Below are positions 35,482 to 42,253 of a stretch of DNA of 64,000 nucleotides, piece by piece. Location: positions 76,341 to 140,340 of the forward strand of contig JAKVBQ010000004.1 of assembly GCA_022447205.1 (NCBI GenBank), in the 5' to 3' direction. The translations under genes were made by a program, and so were the position numbers. The stretch is from Phycisphaerales bacterium. GTDB lineage: Bacteria; Planctomycetota; Phycisphaerae; Phycisphaerales; SM1A02. How positions within the stretch are numbered: the stretch's first letter is position 1; the number at the start of each line of letters is the position of its first letter. The notes under the pieces were generated by a model. It was given only the letters and a program-made list of their open reading frames with translations, had not been told where the DNA came from and did not search any database.

Positions 35482-37410
35482 CTGGACTTCCTCACGCACC
35501 AGGCCAAGGCACATGCACGATCCAGGCTGCTGCTCTGGCTCTTTCCCGTGGCAGCGCTTCTGGTCTCGTTCGGCGTCTGGTTCTCAGTCGTCGGGCTCGC
35601 CTGGCTGGTCCTCGAGGGTGTGGATGCCGTGATCGGGGACATGTCGTATGCCCAAGGTCTCGATTCCGACGGATGGCAGGGGTTTCTCTTCGACTGGCGT
35701 CTCGCCCTGGTCATGATCGTCGGGACGATGCTCGTGATCATCATCAGCTCGATCCGGATGATGATCTCGCTTCGGGGCGGGGGACTGGCCATCGCGCTTC
35801 TGATGAAGGGCATCCCCATCAATCCTGCGACGACCGGACACGAGAGACGGCAGTTGCTCAACATCGTCGAGGAGATGGCGATCGCATCCGGCATGCCGGT
35901 CCCACCGGTGTTCGTCATCGACAGCCGGTCGATCAACGCCTTCGCCGCCGGCTGGTCGCCCGAGAACGCCGTCATCTCCGTGACCCAGGGGTTGATCGAT
36001 CGACTGAATCGGGACGAGATGCAGGGGGTGATCGCTCATGAATTCAGCCACATCGTCCATGGGGACACCCGCATCAACGGCAGGCTCGTGGGCGTCATTC
36101 ACGGCATCATGGCCGTTGGCACGTTGGGCAAGTTCCTCTCCTCGCCCGAGGATGATCGGCTCGATTCCAAGTACCTCGCTCATCCCGGTGCGATCATCAT
36201 CGCCATGATCATCGGGGTCATCATGCAGCTCGTGGGTGCCGTGGGGACGCTGGTCGGTCGCATGATCCAGTCCGCGGTCTCACGGCAACGTGAATTCCTC
36301 GCTGACGCAGCCGCTGTCGACTACACCCGGAACCCCGAAGGCATCGCAGGCGCTTTGCGTGAGATCGCCTCGCGGGGGGGGCGGAACCGATTCCGAAACC
36401 CCAACTCCTCCGAGTTCGCCCACTTCTTCTTCTCCCGGCCGACGTCCTCGATTTTCGCGACGCATCCGCCGCTTGAATCCCGGATCTCCCGGATCGAACA
36501 GGTTCCCGTGGCCGAGCTGGGACGCGTTGCGGCCCCGGGATCAGACGCCACTTCAGACGCCGTTCAGCTCGGTGCCGCGTTCGCCGCCCTTCAGGACCTC
36601 GGTGACATGAAGCCGGCGGCGCTCGAACACGCTCGCAGCCTGATGGATCGTCTTCCGGTCCGGCTCCTCGATTCGATTCATGACCCGGTGGGTGCGCAGG
36701 CGGCGATCCTCGGGTTCCTGGTCGATGACGATCCCGTGGTGCAGTTCCGCCAGCGCTCGAACATCACGAGTCAGCTGGGTGGTCCCATCGTCGCCGAGCT
36801 CAAGGCCCTGCATCCCTTCCTCATCGCAATGGATCGCGTGCAGCAGCTGGTGATTCTCGATCTGGCGGTCCCGGCGCTCTCCCGACTGGATCGTTTTCAC
36901 ACCGATCGCCTGATCATGGTCATCGAATCCTGCATCAAGGCCGACGACAGGATGGACCTCTTCGAGTGGCTGGTCGGGCGGATCATCCTGCGTCGACTCA
37001 AGGCACGAGTGAGCCTGGTCGTGCCGAGGCCCGGCAAGCGACCTCTCGCCGCGGTGCTCGAGGAAGCGCGTGCGGCGGTCTGCATGGTCGCCCGTCGTGG
37101 CTCTCGAACCGAGGAGGAAGCAAGCGCTGCCTATGCCGCAGGTGCGACCGTGCTCGGCGCCAACACCACGCCGCCCGATCAGTCGGCGATGACCCTGGCA
37201 GCACTCGACCGTGCGCTTGATGCACTCGTCGAGGCGAGGTCCGATGTCCAGGTTCGGGTCCTGAGAGCCTGCCTTCAGACAGCGTCGCATGACGGCATGA
37301 TTCGGACCGGTGAGTACCAGATGGTTCGTGCCGTCGCGGATTCCCTCGGACTTCCGATGCCGCCCATCCTGCCCGGGCGGTTGGACGGGACCTCGAACGG
37401 ATCTTCCTGA
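35482..37410 (+). CDS. M48-family membrane zinc metalloprotease, apparent CTG start
   Basis: 642 aa if read from CTG at 35482. The zinc site is HEFSH with His186 and His190; ADAAAVDYTRNPEGIA supplies the third-ligand region. Membrane helices lie near 20-50, 75-95 and 240-265. The first ATG/GTG in frame is GTG at 35548, but the codons upstream encode LDFLTHQAKAHARSRLLLWL, which matches the MDFxxHQxxARxxT-type N-terminus of planctomycete M48 proteins. An in-frame TGA at 35473 bounds it, so CTG is the best-placed start unless one base is in error (an ATG lies 7 nt upstream out of frame). The C-terminal 300 residues are helical and of unknown function. Confidence 0.85.
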   Translation: MDFLTHQAKAHARSRLLLWLFPVAALLVSFGVWFSVVGLAWLVLEGVDAVIGDMSYAQGLDSDGWQGFLFDWRLALVMIVGTMLVIIISSIRMMISLRGGGLAIALLMKGIPINPATTGHERRQLLNIVEEMAIASGMPVPPVFVIDSRSINAFAAGWSPENAVISVTQGLIDRLNRDEMQGVIAHEFSHIVHGDTRINGRLVGVIHGIMAVGTLGKFLSSPEDDRLDSKYLAHPGAIIIAMIIGVIMQLVGAVGTLVGRMIQSAVSRQREFLADAAAVDYTRNPEGIAGALREIASRGGRNRFRNPNSSEFAHFFFSRPTSSIFATHPPLESRISRIEQVPVAELGRVAAPGSDATSDAVQLGAAFAALQDLGDMKPAALEHARSLMDRLPVRLLDSIHDPVGAQAAILGFLVDDDPVVQFRQRSNITSQLGGPIVAELKALHPFLIAMDRVQQLVILDLAVPALSRLDRFHTDRLIMVIESCIKADDRMDLFEWLVGRIILRRLKARVSLVVPRPGKRPLAAVLEEARAAVCMVARRGSRTEEEASAAYAAGATVLGANTTPPDQSAMTLAALDRALDALVEARSDVQVRVLRACLQTASHDGMIRTGEYQMVRAVADSLGLPMPPILPGRLDGTSNGSS

Positions 37411-37417
37411 TCCCTGC

Positions 37418-38140
37418 TCAGTCCTTCGAAGGCACCGGCGGGTAGCAGATCGGTCCGAGCGTTCCCTCGACGTCTTCCGCTCGTTCGATCAGGATCCGGA
37501 TCGCGATGTCGAGCACCTGATGCAGCAGTCGCCCGCAGTCCGCCACCGAGGCCCGGTTCAGCTGGCCCCCGTGTGTCGAGCCGCCATGGACCAGCTGGCA
37601 ACGCAGGGTGTAGACCCGGTAGAGCATCAGCCGGTCCAGGGCGAGTTCCGCCCGGCCGTCATTCAGGTACTTGCGTCCCTTGGTCGGCATGTTGTGCCAG
37701 CTGTCGTCCTCGGTGTCCCCGGCATCGAGCCCGCGCCAGAAGTAGTGGTCGAGGTAGACGTTGTCGAAGAGGCGCTCGCAGAGTCCCCGTTCCCGCTGGA
37801 GGAGCTTCCCGAACTCATCGTCGCGGTCGAGTTCGAGGACGCGTCTCAGGAAGTCCCGGACGCTGCCGATGTCCCGGGCGGGGTGGTTGGTCTCCTCGTC
37901 CCACAGTCCGTAGAGCGCGTTGAAGCTGATCCAGAGGAGGACCAGCTGGTCATCGATCGAGTCGGTGCCGTCGGTGCGGGCGACGTGTTGCGCACGCCGC
38001 AGCCACGAGCACGCCCGGTGCAGGCGGATCGAGAGGGCCATGCCCCGGGCTTTTTCGCGACCGATCAGGCCGTACCACCGCTCCTTGTACTCGTCGGCGG
38101 CGGGGAGGTCGGGGTTGATGCAGGTTTGGAGGTCGGTCAT
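37418..38140 (-). CDS. Uncharacterised HEPN-like protein
   Basis: 240 aa, helical. Two features recall HEPN proteins: an ISFNALYG segment (71-78) and an RCQLVHG stretch with Arg180 and His185, matching the Rx4-6H ribonuclease motif on a late helix. The second position is Cys, not the frequent Asn, so activity is unproven. It is convergent with the M48 gene (7 bp between stops) and divergent from the 318-aa unknown gene. HEPN proteins often act as RNases in toxin-antitoxin or phage defence; no antitoxin-like partner is obvious here. Low-to-moderate certainty. Confidence 0.5.
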   Translation of the reverse strand: MTDLQTCINPDLPAADEYKERWYGLIGREKARGMALSIRLHRACSWLRRAQHVARTDGTDSIDDQLVLLWISFNALYGLWDEETNHPARDIGSVRDFLRRVLELDRDDEFGKLLQRERGLCERLFDNVYLDHYFWRGLDAGDTEDDSWHNMPTKGRKYLNDGRAELALDRLMLYRVYTLRCQLVHGGSTHGGQLNRASVADCGRLLHQVLDIAIRILIERAEDVEGTLGPICYPPVPSKD

Positions 38141-38167
38141 CGACTCATGATGCTACCAGCCAGCGAG

Positions 38168-38173
38168 TATGCT
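38168..38173 (+). promoter_or_regulatory. Candidate -10 element (TATGCT) for the unknown-gene run at 38210
   Basis: TATGCT lies 36 nt before the ATG at 38210, giving a leader of about 30 nt that contains a ribosome-site-like AAGGGCGG. Confidence 0.3.
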
Positions 38174-38209
38174 GCGTGTTCCGGAACGAAAGGGCGGCTA
38201 TTGGGCGGA

Positions 38210-39166
38210 ATGTCTTTCACGGCAGAAGAACTTGAATGCCTGGAGACCCATGCTGTCGGGTGGGAGGCGGTTCTTGATCGCCTTTGGGTCGCACTCGATG
38301 AGCGACTTCATGGCATGATCCTGAATGGTTCGCCCGGTGATTGGGAGCAATGGTCCCTCCGTTCTCGATTCCTGTTTCTCGGTGATGTTGACCGAGCCCA
38401 GGATTTCATCGGGGTCTTCATCGATGGCCTGATGCGGAAGGGGCGAGCTCAGACCCTGTTGCATGGTTTCGAACGGGAAGCGGACAAGGTTCTCGCCTAT
38501 CTTGCAGCGCCCGATCTCGTGCAGAAGCGTGCACTCAGCTACCACGCGAAGGCTGGACGATGCGGGGTCACGGGGATGTCCAGTGATCCAGAGCGAGTTG
38601 GCAGGGCGAGGAACATCGATGCCGATGGCGGGGTCGGGGAGACCCTTGAAGCCAGGTCTCCAAACCGCCCGGGTGGCGGCATTGATCTGACTTCGCTGCC
38701 GATCCAGATCTGCTGGGAACCTGAAGCCGGTATCGATGCCAAGGTCCGCATGGCATCCCTGCAGTGCTGGCCCCGGCTCGACCGCGGACAGCCGGGGATG
38801 ACCGTCCTTGAAGAGGATCTCAAGCAGGTCATCCAATCAAGCAGCGATCTTTCCGCCTTCGAAGCCCTGGTCGAGCAGCATGACCTGGCGCGCAGGCGTC
38901 TGGCCGATGAGATCGCGGAGATCGACCGACAGATCGAAGCGTCGCCCGGCATGCATCGAGAGACTCGTGAACAACACGAGTCCCGTCGGACTGGATTCGA
39001 GGCGGATCGCCTGCTCTGTCCCCTGAATCGAGAACAGGCACAGAGCCTCCTGGGTCTGGCCACGCCTGACGCCGCCTATCAGCAGATTTCACGCTATCGA
39101 AGGGCATACGCGGACCTCTTTCCTGACCTCCTGCAGCACTTCGAGGATCGGATGGCGAACTCATGA
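38210..39166 (+). CDS. Hypothetical protein, 318 aa, coiled-coil region
   Basis: No recognised family. The frame stays open far upstream, but the ATG at 38210 follows a leader with AAGGGCGG and the upstream part overlaps the divergent gene. The first 110 residues are mixed alpha/beta (SLRSRFLFLGDVDRAQDFIG, then FEREADKVLAYLAAPD). The middle (115-180) is Gly/Arg/Pro-rich. Residues 215-270 form a charged heptad-like helix (LARRRLADEIAEIDRQIEAS). The C-terminus is helical with many aromatics. Third-codon G+C looks lower than in neighbours by eye. It overlaps the next small ORF (ATGA) and probably heads a coupled operon. Confidence 0.6.
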   Translation: MSFTAEELECLETHAVGWEAVLDRLWVALDERLHGMILNGSPGDWEQWSLRSRFLFLGDVDRAQDFIGVFIDGLMRKGRAQTLLHGFEREADKVLAYLAAPDLVQKRALSYHAKAGRCGVTGMSSDPERVGRARNIDADGGVGETLEARSPNRPGGGIDLTSLPIQICWEPEAGIDAKVRMASLQCWPRLDRGQPGMTVLEEDLKQVIQSSSDLSAFEALVEQHDLARRRLADEIAEIDRQIEASPGMHRETREQHESRRTGFEADRLLCPLNREQAQSLLGLATPDAAYQQISRYRRAYADLFPDLLQHFEDRMANS

Positions 39167-39324
39167 TGTCCGAGGCCCTTGTTTTCCGGCTCGAATTCCC
39201 GACTTCGCCGGTCAGGATCGACGGGGGCGATGTGTCCAATCTCAGGCAGGAGCTGGTTCCTGTCATGACCCGTGTTCGTGATGCGAATTCGACGGGTGAA
39301 TCCGAGGCCTTGCTCCATGTCTGA
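39163..39324 (+). CDS. Small overlapping ORF, 53 aa
   Basis: Starts ATGATG, overlapping the stop of the 318-aa gene by 4 nt, and ends 8 nt inside the next gene. The product (MMSEALVFRLEFPTSPVRID, then a polar helix VSNLRQELVPVMTRVRDA) has no recognised family. Overlap on both sides suggests translational coupling through the ORF; it could also be only a ribosome relay. It is too short to judge by composition. Confidence 0.4.
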   Translation: MMSEALVFRLEFPTSPVRIDGGDVSNLRQELVPVMTRVRDANSTGESEALLHV

Positions 39325-40243
39325 ACACCACTCCGACTCCGAACGGTCCCTTGATGAACTCCGACTCTCGATCGAGGACGAGCTCCAGGGTGCCGACACC
39401 GCACTGGACCACGTTCTTTGTGCCGCCCGGCTCGCCGCCATCGGCGAGCCGGATGCCTACCTGGCCTGGCCCGGCGCTCTTGGTGATCGTGCCGCAGATC
39501 TTTCCGATGAGCTCAGCACCGCCTGCCTCGACCTCGTCGTGCGCCTGCGTCGTGCCGAAGGTGAGGAACTGGTGCGTGCTCTCCTCGAGGCCCAGGCGTT
39601 CCATACCCTGCGCATCGTCGACCGAGACATGGGCGGGCTCCTCGAACCGGCCCATTCGGTCATCGAGTCGATGCTTCTCGAGTGTGATGGCCTCCCTCTC
39701 GATGATGAAGCGGCCGGTGCACTGCACGGACTTCTGGAACTCGAGCTGACGCCCGATGCGTTCCTGCTGCCGATCCTGGTGGCGCCGGTCGGTTTGACCG
39801 CCTGCCTGGCGATCTCGGAAGCACGTATTGCTGCCGGACTCCGTCCGGTCGAACACATCGGCCGGGCTGCGCACTTTGATCCTGCCGAGCAGCTTGAACC
39901 GGAGCTGGCTTTTGATGGCGGGCGACCCAGTGCACGCATGATCGATCGATTTGCCCGGCGACGCGGCGAGATGCGATTCGACGACGGCACCACCGCGGAG
40001 GTTCGTGCGGTTCTCGAGGAGGACTGGCAGGTGACCGTCAAGTTCAGGATCGCCGATGCCGACGAGGCCTGGTGCCGAAGGATCGACCTGGTCCGGATCG
40101 GTGCCCGGTTGGCACGACCGATCGACGACCTCCAGGATTTCTGGACCACCTCGCTTGCCAATCTCGGGGTTGATGCCCAGACTCGTCTCATGAACCAGCC
40201 GATTCTCATCAAGATGTCCAACGGACAGCGCTTTTCGATCTGA
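39317..40243 (+). CDS. Hypothetical protein, 308 aa
   Basis: No recognised family. The ATG at 39317 overlaps the small upstream ORF by 8 nt. The N-terminal 200 residues are acidic and helical, rich in Leu/Ala/Glu (LDLVVRLRRAEGEELVRALL, LLECDGLPLDDEAAGALHGL). The C-terminal third alternates short strands and charged turns (WQVTVKFRI, CRRIDLVRIGARLARPI). No signal peptide or membrane helix, so probably cytoplasmic. The same reading frame continues open after its stop into the Lon-like gene, whose start is uncertain. Confidence 0.65.
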   Translation: MSEHHSDSERSLDELRLSIEDELQGADTALDHVLCAARLAAIGEPDAYLAWPGALGDRAADLSDELSTACLDLVVRLRRAEGEELVRALLEAQAFHTLRIVDRDMGGLLEPAHSVIESMLLECDGLPLDDEAAGALHGLLELELTPDAFLLPILVAPVGLTACLAISEARIAAGLRPVEHIGRAAHFDPAEQLEPELAFDGGRPSARMIDRFARRRGEMRFDDGTTAEVRAVLEEDWQVTVKFRIADADEAWCRRIDLVRIGARLARPIDDLQDFWTTSLANLGVDAQTRLMNQPILIKMSNGQRFSI

Positions 40244-40348
40244 TTCGCTCGTCGACCGACATCCGGCTGCAGACAGCGAAGGAAGGGTCGCGCCACGTCT
40301 TCCCGAACCGATCATTTCGATGAACCGCATGCCCTGGACTGGGGATGG

Positions 40349-42253
40349 TTGTTGTCACGTGATCCACAGACCCTCGTCGAGCGGGTTCGAAGAGGTCGAG
40401 CCGCGCTCTGGGTGGAGCGGATCGTGCGAGGCCTCGATGAACGGATCGAAGGCGGACTGGACCTGCCCCGACCGACTCGCGACCAGGCCACGTCCGACTG
40501 GTTGCCTGCCGACATGGTGCCGATCGTCGGTGCCTTGCCCGGTGATGATGGTGCGCTTGGTGCATTGCGTTTCGTCGCGTCGGACGAGCGCATCGGTGCG
40601 GCAGGCGCCATCGACGCCCTGTCGGAATCGGTCGGCTCCGATCCGGATGCTGCCGCGCATGCCGGCGTCTCACTGGTCTGCACCATGATGGCGGAACTGC
40701 TGCCGAATGCGCCTCGGCCGAGACCCGAATTCCTCGTCGGTCGACGTGGAGCGGGGGACAGCGTCGCCCTTGCCGCGGGCGTCGGCACCCTGCTTCGTTT
40801 CTTCGGCGTGCCCTGGCCTGCGGATCTCGTCGTCACCGGAGGGATCGACACGAAGACCGGTCGGTTCACGCCGGTTCCGCGTGACACCCTGCCAGGCAAG
40901 GTCTCGGCGCTCCGAGCCTGGGGCTTCAAACGACTCGGAGTCGTTGCGCACGATGACGATGCGGACCTGCCCGACGCCATCGATGGCGTCGAACTCGTCC
41001 GATTTCCCGCCGATCCGAACGAACTCCCCGCCTTCCTGGCGACGCTTGCTGGTGTTGCACTCGATGATGCGGACGTCGCACGTGCGCTTGCCCTCTTCGA
41101 CCTTCGCGTCGGTCGGGCCGGTCCGCACATGCTCGAACATGTCTTCGAGGTGTCCGCGCCCTTCCTCGAGCACGGGTCGCCGCTGGTCCGGCACCTCGTG
41201 CTCGACATGCGTTCTCGTGCGCTGCTCCACGCGGGGCGGAGCGAAGAGTCCCGGGCCACGCTCGAGGCGGCTGATGCGCTTCGGGGCGAGGGCTACCTCC
41301 CCGACGGTCGTTTGCGTGACGTGCTGCGCTACCAGCAGTCGGCGCACCGTTCCGTCGTGCAACTCGACGTGGGGATCTGGTCCGACGAGGATCCCGTGCA
41401 CGAGCGTGTGGATCGGCTCATCGAGGAACTCGATGATCGTTGGAACACCCGGCATGAGTCCCTGATGCGGATCTTCCTCGCCAACACCCGCGCTCGCCGA
41501 CATGAATACCTTGGTCGCCTGCATGGTGACGAGACACGTCTCCAGATGGCGTGGGACGATCTCTCCAGGGATCACGATCGCTGGGAGGACCTCATCGTGC
41601 GGTACGCGGGCAACGTCCTGCGACTCCGGGACACAACGCGAGAGCGGATCGAGAACCAGCTGGTCGACGTCGCCGCGAGTCGCGTGGCCGTGATCGGAAC
41701 ATTGCCCGGAGCGTGGCGTTCGGTGTTGCTTGCGATTCCCGACCGATCAGCCGCCTGCGTCGGCGTTTCGAGCGAGGCGTCGGTGCTCGAGTTTCGTGAC
41801 GATGCCGGGAGCTCCACGTTCGTGGGCGGCAGCGGCTTCAACGCGCTGGCCGGACTTCGCAGGCATCTTGCCCTCGAGGAGGATGGCGTGCCCGCTCATC
41901 TCGAGCCATTGCTCGCATGCACCTCATGCGAGCTCACGAATGGAGCAGAACAACTCCGCTATCCCTGGTTCGTCTGGTTCGAGCAGCTCGCCCTGCTCGC
42001 GCAACGCCTTGGACGTGTGCTGCCCATGCCCGCGCCCCGCCCCGGAACCGTCGCACCCGCAGGCTGGGAGCATCTCGACCAACCCGAGCAAGGGATCGAA
42101 TCGATCCTCGCCCTGCGTTCGCGCTGGGTCCTCAGGGAACTTGGCGTGGCCCTTCCCGAGCTTCAGGAGCCGCCGTCCGGTACGTCACTTCGGGTGCTCC
42201 ATGATCTCCTGCTCGAACGCCCTGACGCGCTGCATGTCCGCACCCCGTACTGA
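40349..42253 (+). CDS. Lon-like (S16) Ser/Lys protease domain protein without AAA+ module
   Basis: 634 aa from TTG at 40349. Residues 125-230 match the Lon proteolytic domain: RRGAGDSVALAAG with nucleophile Ser138, VVTGGIDTKTGRFTPVP, and LPGKVSALRAWGF with Lys184. The Ser-Lys spacing of 46 is close to E. coli Lon (43). There is no ATPase domain. The C-terminal 380 residues are helical (RVDRLIEELDDRW, HEYLGRLHGDETRLQMAWDD) and unrecognised. Start uncertain: coding-like sequence continues upstream (DEPHALDWGW), and ACG at 40295 has GGAAGGG 7 nt before it, but no ATG or GTG is available. Probably in one unit with the upstream unknown genes. Confidence 0.65.
   Translation: MLSRDPQTLVERVRRGRAALWVERIVRGLDERIEGGLDLPRPTRDQATSDWLPADMVPIVGALPGDDGALGALRFVASDERIGAAGAIDALSESVGSDPDAAAHAGVSLVCTMMAELLPNAPRPRPEFLVGRRGAGDSVALAAGVGTLLRFFGVPWPADLVVTGGIDTKTGRFTPVPRDTLPGKVSALRAWGFKRLGVVAHDDDADLPDAIDGVELVRFPADPNELPAFLATLAGVALDDADVARALALFDLRVGRAGPHMLEHVFEVSAPFLEHGSPLVRHLVLDMRSRALLHAGRSEESRATLEAADALRGEGYLPDGRLRDVLRYQQSAHRSVVQLDVGIWSDEDPVHERVDRLIEELDDRWNTRHESLMRIFLANTRARRHEYLGRLHGDETRLQMAWDDLSRDHDRWEDLIVRYAGNVLRLRDTTRERIENQLVDVAASRVAVIGTLPGAWRSVLLAIPDRSAACVGVSSEASVLEFRDDAGSSTFVGGSGFNALAGLRRHLALEEDGVPAHLEPLLACTSCELTNGAEQLRYPWFVWFEQLALLAQRLGRVLPMPAPRPGTVAPAGWEHLDQPEQGIESILALRSRWVLRELGVALPELQEPPSGTSLRVLHDLLLERPDALHVRTPY

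Follow-up and report, generated by a model that had tools for sequence, protein, structure and literature searches.

Relays in which a Lon- or CHAT-type protease frees a sigma factor from its inhibitor have been described in settings linked to clustered regularly interspaced short palindromic repeats (CRISPR), to judge from excerpts of the accounts (PMC10028731, PMC11417357). In the CalpL/CalpT/CalpS system of Sulfurihydrogenibium, as the available sections of PMC11417357 present it, an extracytoplasmic function (ECF) sigma factor is accompanied by an anti-sigma factor of 33 kDa and by a protease whose Lon domain is N-terminal and whose SAVED sensor is C-terminal; cleavage of the anti-sigma factor by this protease leaves a 23 kDa piece on the sigma factor. 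Csx30, which is cut by the CHAT protease Csx29, binds a sigma factor via its N-terminal domain (PMC10028731, in excerpt). We analyzed a stretch of 64,000 nucleotides from a Phycisphaerales bacterium (assembly GCA_022447205.1, contig JAKVBQ010000004.1; hereafter, the window), in which genes A, C and D follow one another on the + strand and a HEPN-like gene, H, lies divergently on the − strand. Our best reading is that the A-C-D set encodes a stress-signaling relay of the protease/anti-sigma/sigma type (rough probability, 0.6), which would be independent of CRISPR and resemble the CRISPR-linked Calp relay.

The likeness to CalpS-CalpT-CalpL becomes apparent once A is read as a sigma factor; an initial annotation, made from the sequence alone, had counted A among its unrecognized frames and matched none of the parts to a named system. 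We infer that C would hold the ECF-type sigma factor A inactive via its helical N-terminal domain. The C-terminal domain of D would sense a cue, and the Lon-type Ser/Lys site of D would cut C, most likely in the linker formed by residues 178–200. Cleavage would free A to switch on a small gene set, and H would be a linked partner, either a ribonuclease (RNase) effector or a second regulated output. The scheme in its entirety (a CRISPR-independent, Calp-like relay in which an ATPase-less Lon with a new sensor cuts a soluble anti-sigma factor and so frees a divergent sigma factor of the ECF type, a HEPN RNase serves as the linked output, and an ACG start codon keeps the protease sparse) falls somewhat short of even odds. 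If this scheme holds, relays of the protease/anti-sigma/sigma type would form a wider class whose sensors can be exchanged, and the CRISPR-associated Calp relay would be one of its branches. Such logic in a chromosomal set, one for which no CRISPR partner was found, would suggest how such relays originated and point to a new sensor domain, and it would provide testable roles for four protein families (A, C, D, and H) that have no above-cut-off match in Pfam, NCBIfam or PADLOC.

The sigma-like protein A

For gene A (38210..39166, + strand, 318 aa), the best assignment is to the sigma factors of the ECF type, as a divergent member, and we consider it quite probable. Sigma regions 2 and 4 were suspected in A from its sequence before any fold search. 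The AlphaFold2 model (predicted local distance difference test [pLDDT], 80.7; predicted template modeling score [pTM], 0.50) gives a predicted resemblance of moderate strength to sigma region 2, which covers residues 2–125 (38213..38584). In VIA-align, ranks 1–9 were all sigma chains, with Z scores of 7.5 to 5.2 over residues 1–131; the top row was E. coli sigmaE (6jbq_F, Z = 7.5, 93 residues, 3.1 Å), and the best non-sigma row over the N-terminal part had a Z of only 3.0. Of these nine chains, six bear the name sigmaE or SigC, and five of the six are E. coli sigmaE; we take 9a4r_A (title "RPSH-RPOB"), 9m9e_F and 6tye_F to be sigma subunits, in part from their titles. Sigma region 2 also appeared in 6 of the 20 Foldseek rows. 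The VIA-align list for A holds no structural match to sigma region 4, and no clear fold match is listed for residues 170–318.

Profile comparison with hhalign suggests that the two ends of A align, weakly but collinearly, with 12 ECF sigma factors of the same genome: residues 1–125 fall at the start of the ECF alignment (P = 0.0099) and residues 170–318 at its end (P = 0.012). The latter segment includes a putative sigma-4-like helix-turn-helix at residues ∼267–303 (39008..39118; helices 274–281 and 286–298). For comparison, six segments taken from C, D, and H had P values of at least 0.091, and 12 column shuffles of residues 1–125, which covered the N-terminal part, had values of at least 0.19. 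Three option sets were run, and the values quoted are those of the default.

The proposed anti-sigma factor C and the peptidase D

Gene C (39317..40243, + strand, 308 aa) is the proposed anti-sigma factor. Its AlphaFold2 model (pLDDT, 82.5; pTM, 0.59) has a three-part shape, predicted with moderate strength: a helical domain (residues 4–172; 39326..39832), a low-confidence linker (residues 178–200; 39848..39916; pLDDT below 50) that is gapped in the family alignment and is the proposed cleavage region, and a beta-sandwich-like domain (residues 206–308; 39932..40240). A cut in the linker would leave an N-terminal piece that we estimate at ∼20 kDa. An anti-sigma role would fit the arrangement in another family, where it is the N-terminal domain of C that has been kept next to an A-like gene. 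In G651 and G628, two genomes of that family, the A-like gene (E = 6e-10 and 2e-8, respectively) is directly followed by a long protein in which the C N-terminal domain (E = 5e-8 and 8e-10) is joined to HEAT repeats (L170:7041-9932 and L169:1532-4226), as would be expected if this domain is the sigma partner. The G651 copy (L170) terminates in a HEPN-like-looking RRNDLAHG stretch, for which no significant alignment with H was obtained (P = 0.64); the G628 copy is truncated short of that point.

Gene D (40295..42253, + strand) is, on its sequence, a Lon-type Ser/Lys peptidase without an ATPase and with an intact Ser/Lys pair. The Lon (S16) proteolytic domain (40625..41041) contains Ser138 (AGC, 40760-40762) and Lys184 (AAG, 40898-40900), which are invariant in all 12 aligned rows, the window's included, as is the Asp that precedes the Ser. 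A profile of these 12 rows matched nine PDB sequences at E ≤ 10, eight of which are Lon; the best was the archaeal Lon proteolytic domain 1xhk (E = 2.8e-6), with the GDS serine aligned. Pfam Lon_C matched 1 of the 12 members (E = 0.034), and no AAA+ ATPase module was matched in D by Pfam or NCBIfam. Of the weak matches given by the proteins of the locus, the strongest linked D with a model of a type III secretion chaperone (E = 0.0062; 17 bits, where the cut-off is 70). The Lon domain is followed by a C-terminal domain of ∼390 residues (41084..42250), at the position equivalent to the SAVED sensor of CalpL. It ends in PY in the 11 complete rows and gave only sub-threshold, TPR-like hints.

The initial annotation was right about the strand of D, its Ser138/Lys184 pair and its lack of an ATPase. 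A start of D at TTG 40349 (634 aa) probably has to be moved upstream. In six genomes of genera g1 and g13, conserved coding sequence, recognized by eye from synonymous third-base changes, continues upstream of TTG 40349 to a [FVI]D[QE]P motif. Upstream of this motif, G000, G074, and G013 reach a stop without an in-frame ATG, GTG or TTG. An ATG is found in G001 and a pair of GTGs in G099; in G117 an ATG occurs only beyond 45 codons. Common to all six is ACG 40295-40297, preceded at a distance of 5–11 nucleotides by a Shine-Dalgarno-like match of 4–6 nucleotides; at the same place in the g33 relatives, ACG is a plain Thr codon. D thus likely starts at ACG 40295, which would give a protein of ∼652 aa.

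Conservation, genomic settings and the linked gene H

A, C, D, and H are real genes that are conserved as a unit. The initial annotation had made its grouping depend on co-occurrence in relatives, and this was found: A and C match in exactly the same 12 of 101 genomes of the family (4 of 45 genera). Were the two genes independent, the chance of this would be ∼8e-16, a figure that shared ancestry keeps from being a true probability. D adjoins C on its downstream side in all 12 neighborhoods (cut by the contig end in G062). In 11 of them H is no more than 1 kb away from the set, and the twelfth, G062, is on a contig of only 6.1 kb that ends early. None of the five window proteins A, B (see below), C, D, and H has an above-cut-off match to a named family in Pfam or NCBIfam, ordinary housekeeping families included, and none has a match in PADLOC. 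When the D protein was searched for by itself, 4 of 61 relatives had it, the genome of the window counted. When genome contigs were scanned with C, 47 stretches matched and no relative was among them.

The set occurs in two settings, for which the names of the flanking AcrA/AcrB, FolC, LeuS, phosphorylase, IMPDH, PilT and uracil-DNA glycosylase genes were assigned by eye without a family search. In the first (six genomes, genera g1 and g13), AcrA/AcrB-like genes and a gene for an HD protein lie upstream and a sulfatase gene downstream; FolC- and LeuS-like genes are present in five of the six, and the contig of the sixth (G001) ends in the sulfatase gene. In the second, formed by two other genera, the flanks are largely different (phosphorylase-, IMPDH-, PilT-, and uracil-glycosylase-like genes), and H is downstream of D and convergent with it. 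A SMUG1-type uracil-DNA glycosylase-like gene, identified by eye, stands between D and H in two genera (L036:14800-15531; L040:12409-13182). With 12 carriers among 101 genomes the distribution is patchy, which either losses or transfer could explain.

Searches of the class and the phylum scored at most 4 to 7 candidates per genome and may therefore have missed distant copies. Within these limits, the D profile matched 7 of 298 genomes in the class-wide samples, one match being an ordinary 832-aa LonA in G125 (E = 4.3e-4), and the A profile matched 6 of 298; in the phylum sample, 6 of 343 genomes, the window's included, had a relative of C. In G441, which is outside the family, the ∼200-aa gene E described below, C and D stand in a row (D profile, E = 6e-57) behind an open reading frame (ORF) at A's place that the A profile matched with an E value of only 0.11. 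In G246, of another family, a D relative (E = 4e-90) is preceded by a piece that resembles the C-terminal part of C. The serine motif of this D relative (L146:7923-9860) is GAS, not GDS.

The slot between A and C is occupied in the window by a 53-aa ORF, B (39163..39324, + strand). The stop of A overlaps the start of B (ATGA) and the stop of B overlaps the start of C (ATGTCTGA); the overlaps, which the initial annotation had reported for frames of 318, 53 and 308 aa, were confirmed. B is not conserved as a protein, and its standing as an independent gene was rejected, as tblastn found no relative in the other 11 loci. Instead, the slot holds the ∼200-aa gene E in four g33 genomes and in the distant G441 (for example, L036:10652-11329 and L168:10091-10759, in other genera); E is 71–81% identical within g33, and G441 matches g33 by tblastn with E values of 3e-5 to 2e-3. 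Within the genus of the window and the sister genus, an ORF that starts at the stop codon of A and has a P-V-R-like tripeptide persists in the slot. Because the same slot holds gene E in g33 and G441, B is at most a shortened relic.

The slot also contains a CCGGTCAGG - N16 - TGTC element (39208..39236, + strand), found by eye. By the same means, GGTCAGG was seen in six of the eight loci that lack E, AGTCAGA in G099 and neither in G090; YGTC follows GGTCAGG by 16 nucleotides in five of these six. The element may be an ECF-type promoter for C and D, or a relic of the P-[VL]-R-F start of E. G099 alters two of the P-[VL]-R codons only synonymously, and G117 retains the GGTCAGG core in its DNA but alters the Pro. 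A motif search gave 32 places in seven genomes, of which the set that recurred in several genomes resembled coding sequence by eye, and for this reason no regulon is claimed. In the 69 bp intergenic region between H and A (38141..38209), two opposed −10-like hexamers, TAGCAT (toward H) and TATGCT (toward A), appear by eye to be conserved in six genomes and hint at co-regulated divergent promoters.

H (37418..38140, − strand, 240 aa) is divergent from A and carries the R-x4-H motif, as the initial annotation had it (R180-x4-H185, RCQLVH, at 37603-37586). The motif is present in all 12 linked copies of H, which come from 11 of the 12 operon genomes and from G112, where H stands beside a D fragment at a contig end; the twelfth operon contig ends before H. 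In G074, the Arg codon of the motif contains an N and still reads as Arg. From this motif H may be an RNase; Pfam matched no HEPN model in any of 11 members. H was matched in 39 of the 101 family genomes, including 11 of the 12 carriers of A and C.

The window belongs to contig 34 in a draft genome of 3.25 Mb. Its GC content is 0.62–0.65 across the region, similar to the surroundings; ARAGORN found no tRNA genes in it, and there are no direct repeats of at least 22 bases within 200. Upstream of the set is a gene for an HtpX-like M48 protease (35548-37410), whose C-terminal extension of ∼300 aa has a sub-threshold TerB match (E = 0.031), and downstream is a sulfatase gene. PADLOC gave no match for eight window proteins. 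By a single model (PF22335), Cas10 was found above cut-off in none of the 12 operon genomes, with one match below cut-off in G099. Palm-domain matches above cut-off were found in G628 and G441, two of four related genomes outside the family, on other contigs (L175 and L176, respectively). Of these Cas10-positive genomes, G628 carries the C-HEAT fusion and G441 the E-C-D set. The initial annotation had suggested a defense locus. Location lends this no support: the flanks look like ordinary chromosomal genes in both settings (many of them named by eye), with no PADLOC match and no above-cut-off Cas10 in the operon genomes. What speaks for a defense role is the analogy with the CRISPR-linked relays and the R-x4-H motif, and on these it is possible.

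Rival readings and known systems

Several results weigh against the relay or one of its parts. For A, VIA-align Z scores below ∼13 may, by the tool's own note, reflect merely a common helical arrangement. Foldseek gave no significant match (best E = 3.4; best sigma row, 7.0), and hhalign of the whole protein reached only P = 0.019. The ECF model TIGR02937 had 18 matches in the same genome, A not listed; because this model did not detect it, we call A ECF-type and do not file it as a classified ECF sigma factor. C has no clear fold match (best Z = 6.8) and no anti-sigma signature. Lon chains in the PDB were reached by the 12-row profile of D and not by the window's D sequence on its own, and the C-terminal domain of D matched no recognized sensor. 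The promoter-like element led to no regulon, with 2–9 matches per genome versus 0–4 for the reversed control. Near the C relatives in G635 and G538 (in G538 a TGA interrupts the match) there is no A, D or H match, nor does the A relative in G183 have a C or D match nearby. The two settings are not wholly unrelated, because both have a gene of the same sulfatase cluster close to the operon, which in the second setting lies ∼4 kb upstream of A. Finally, the copies of H from the two settings formed neither a supported clade nor a rejected one (p-AU = 0.284) in a tree of 31 rows from 32 loci of the 39 H genomes, of which 29 rows were kept for the p-AU test after G017 (a fragment) and G093 (a long or partial row) were dropped.

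D could instead degrade or trim the sigma factor A itself, or E, and so limit the response, with C as an adaptor or co-activator. The lack of an anti-sigma signature in C would suit this, as would precedents: Lon-mediated turnover is reported, in the published text available, for the alpha-proteobacterial stress sigma factor sigmaT, and the ATP-independent, Lon-like MtaLonC degrades unfolded proteins and spares well-folded ones (PMC3391209, in excerpt). The order, sizes and domain layout of the genes nevertheless fit a CalpS/T/L-type relay better, and in G651 and G628 the N-terminal domain of C follows the A-like gene with no D relative in the short contigs examined; we consider degradation of A unlikely. 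We would put still less credence in an abortive-infection or toxin-antitoxin locus, in which H would be an RNase toxin neutralized or regulated by A, C, and D. The invariant R-x4-H of the 12 linked copies, the linkage of H to the set in 11 of 12 genomes and two settings, and the RRNDLAHG end of one C-HEAT protein speak for it. On the other side, 28 of the 39 H genomes, G112 among them, have no A or C match, the neighborhoods of H in 19 further genomes differ among genera, PADLOC gave no match, and the RRNDLAHG stretch shows no significant alignment with H.

It seems to us very improbable that the set is a planctomycete offshoot of the sigma - DUF1822 - CHAT/CHASE2 modules of cyanobacteria in which Lon has replaced the CHAT peptidase. 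These modules do share a general plan with the window: among 12 DUF1822 loci, drawn from 22 plasmid records that matched, a CHAT or CHASE2 gene follows DUF1822 on the same strand in eight loci and a gene annotated as a sigma factor precedes it in four, and ECF sigma and DUF1822 genes are described beside EACC2-caspase genes in the available part of Kaur et al. (2021; PMC8195603). DUF1822 (PF08852) membership of C was not supported, however, with an hhalign P of 0.2 and Pfam matches in 0 of 12 C members, nor was a relationship of A to the cyanobacterial upstream proteins (profile comparison, P = 0.75). PF08852 was found in 0 of 246 phylum genomes, which shows little because the control genomes also gave 0 of 14. 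In six of the cyanobacterial plasmid loci (L151, L152, L153, L156, L159, and L161), the gene before DUF1822 is annotated as hypothetical, in the position where four other loci have a sigma-70 factor; some of these genes may be unrecognized sigma-like proteins.

A literature search, the scope of which excluded subscription papers, returned no description of this gene set among the matches listed, and one may exist elsewhere. Among described systems, the relay that we favor shares with the cyanobacterial modules the succession, in many loci, of a sigma factor, a partner and a peptidase or sensor (PMC8195603, in excerpt); unlike theirs, its C does not match DUF1822 and its peptidase is Lon-type. 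With MtaLonC it shares a Lon proteolytic domain without ATPase activity, but the extra part precedes the Lon domain in MtaLonC, as far as the excerpted account goes (PMC3391209), and follows it in D. Craspase/CASP (Csx29 TPR-CHAT, Csx30, CASP-sigma), in the sections of PMC10028731 available, likewise has a protease that cuts an inhibitor bound to an ECF sigma factor by its N-terminal domain. There, a CHAT peptidase is activated by Cas7-11 and target RNA, whereas here the peptidase would be of the Lon Ser/Lys type.

The closest comparison is with CalpS/CalpT/CalpL. Differences are plain: SAVED was not detected in D (by Pfam, or by PADLOC with 0 matches for 12 D relatives, both at the profile level only), the D profile matched ordinary Lon chains in the PDB, and the locus also contains E, or what is left of it, together with the HEPN-like gene linked to the set. 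Because there is no SAVED match and no above-cut-off Cas10 in the 12 operon genomes, we propose that the set works like Calp without filing it as Calp. In gene order and sizes, A, C, and D match CalpS, CalpT, and CalpL as far as the excerpts of PMC11417357 describe them: a putative ECF-type sigma factor, a partner of ∼33 kDa (C, 308 aa) and a protease whose Lon domain precedes a further, large domain, all within one gene set.

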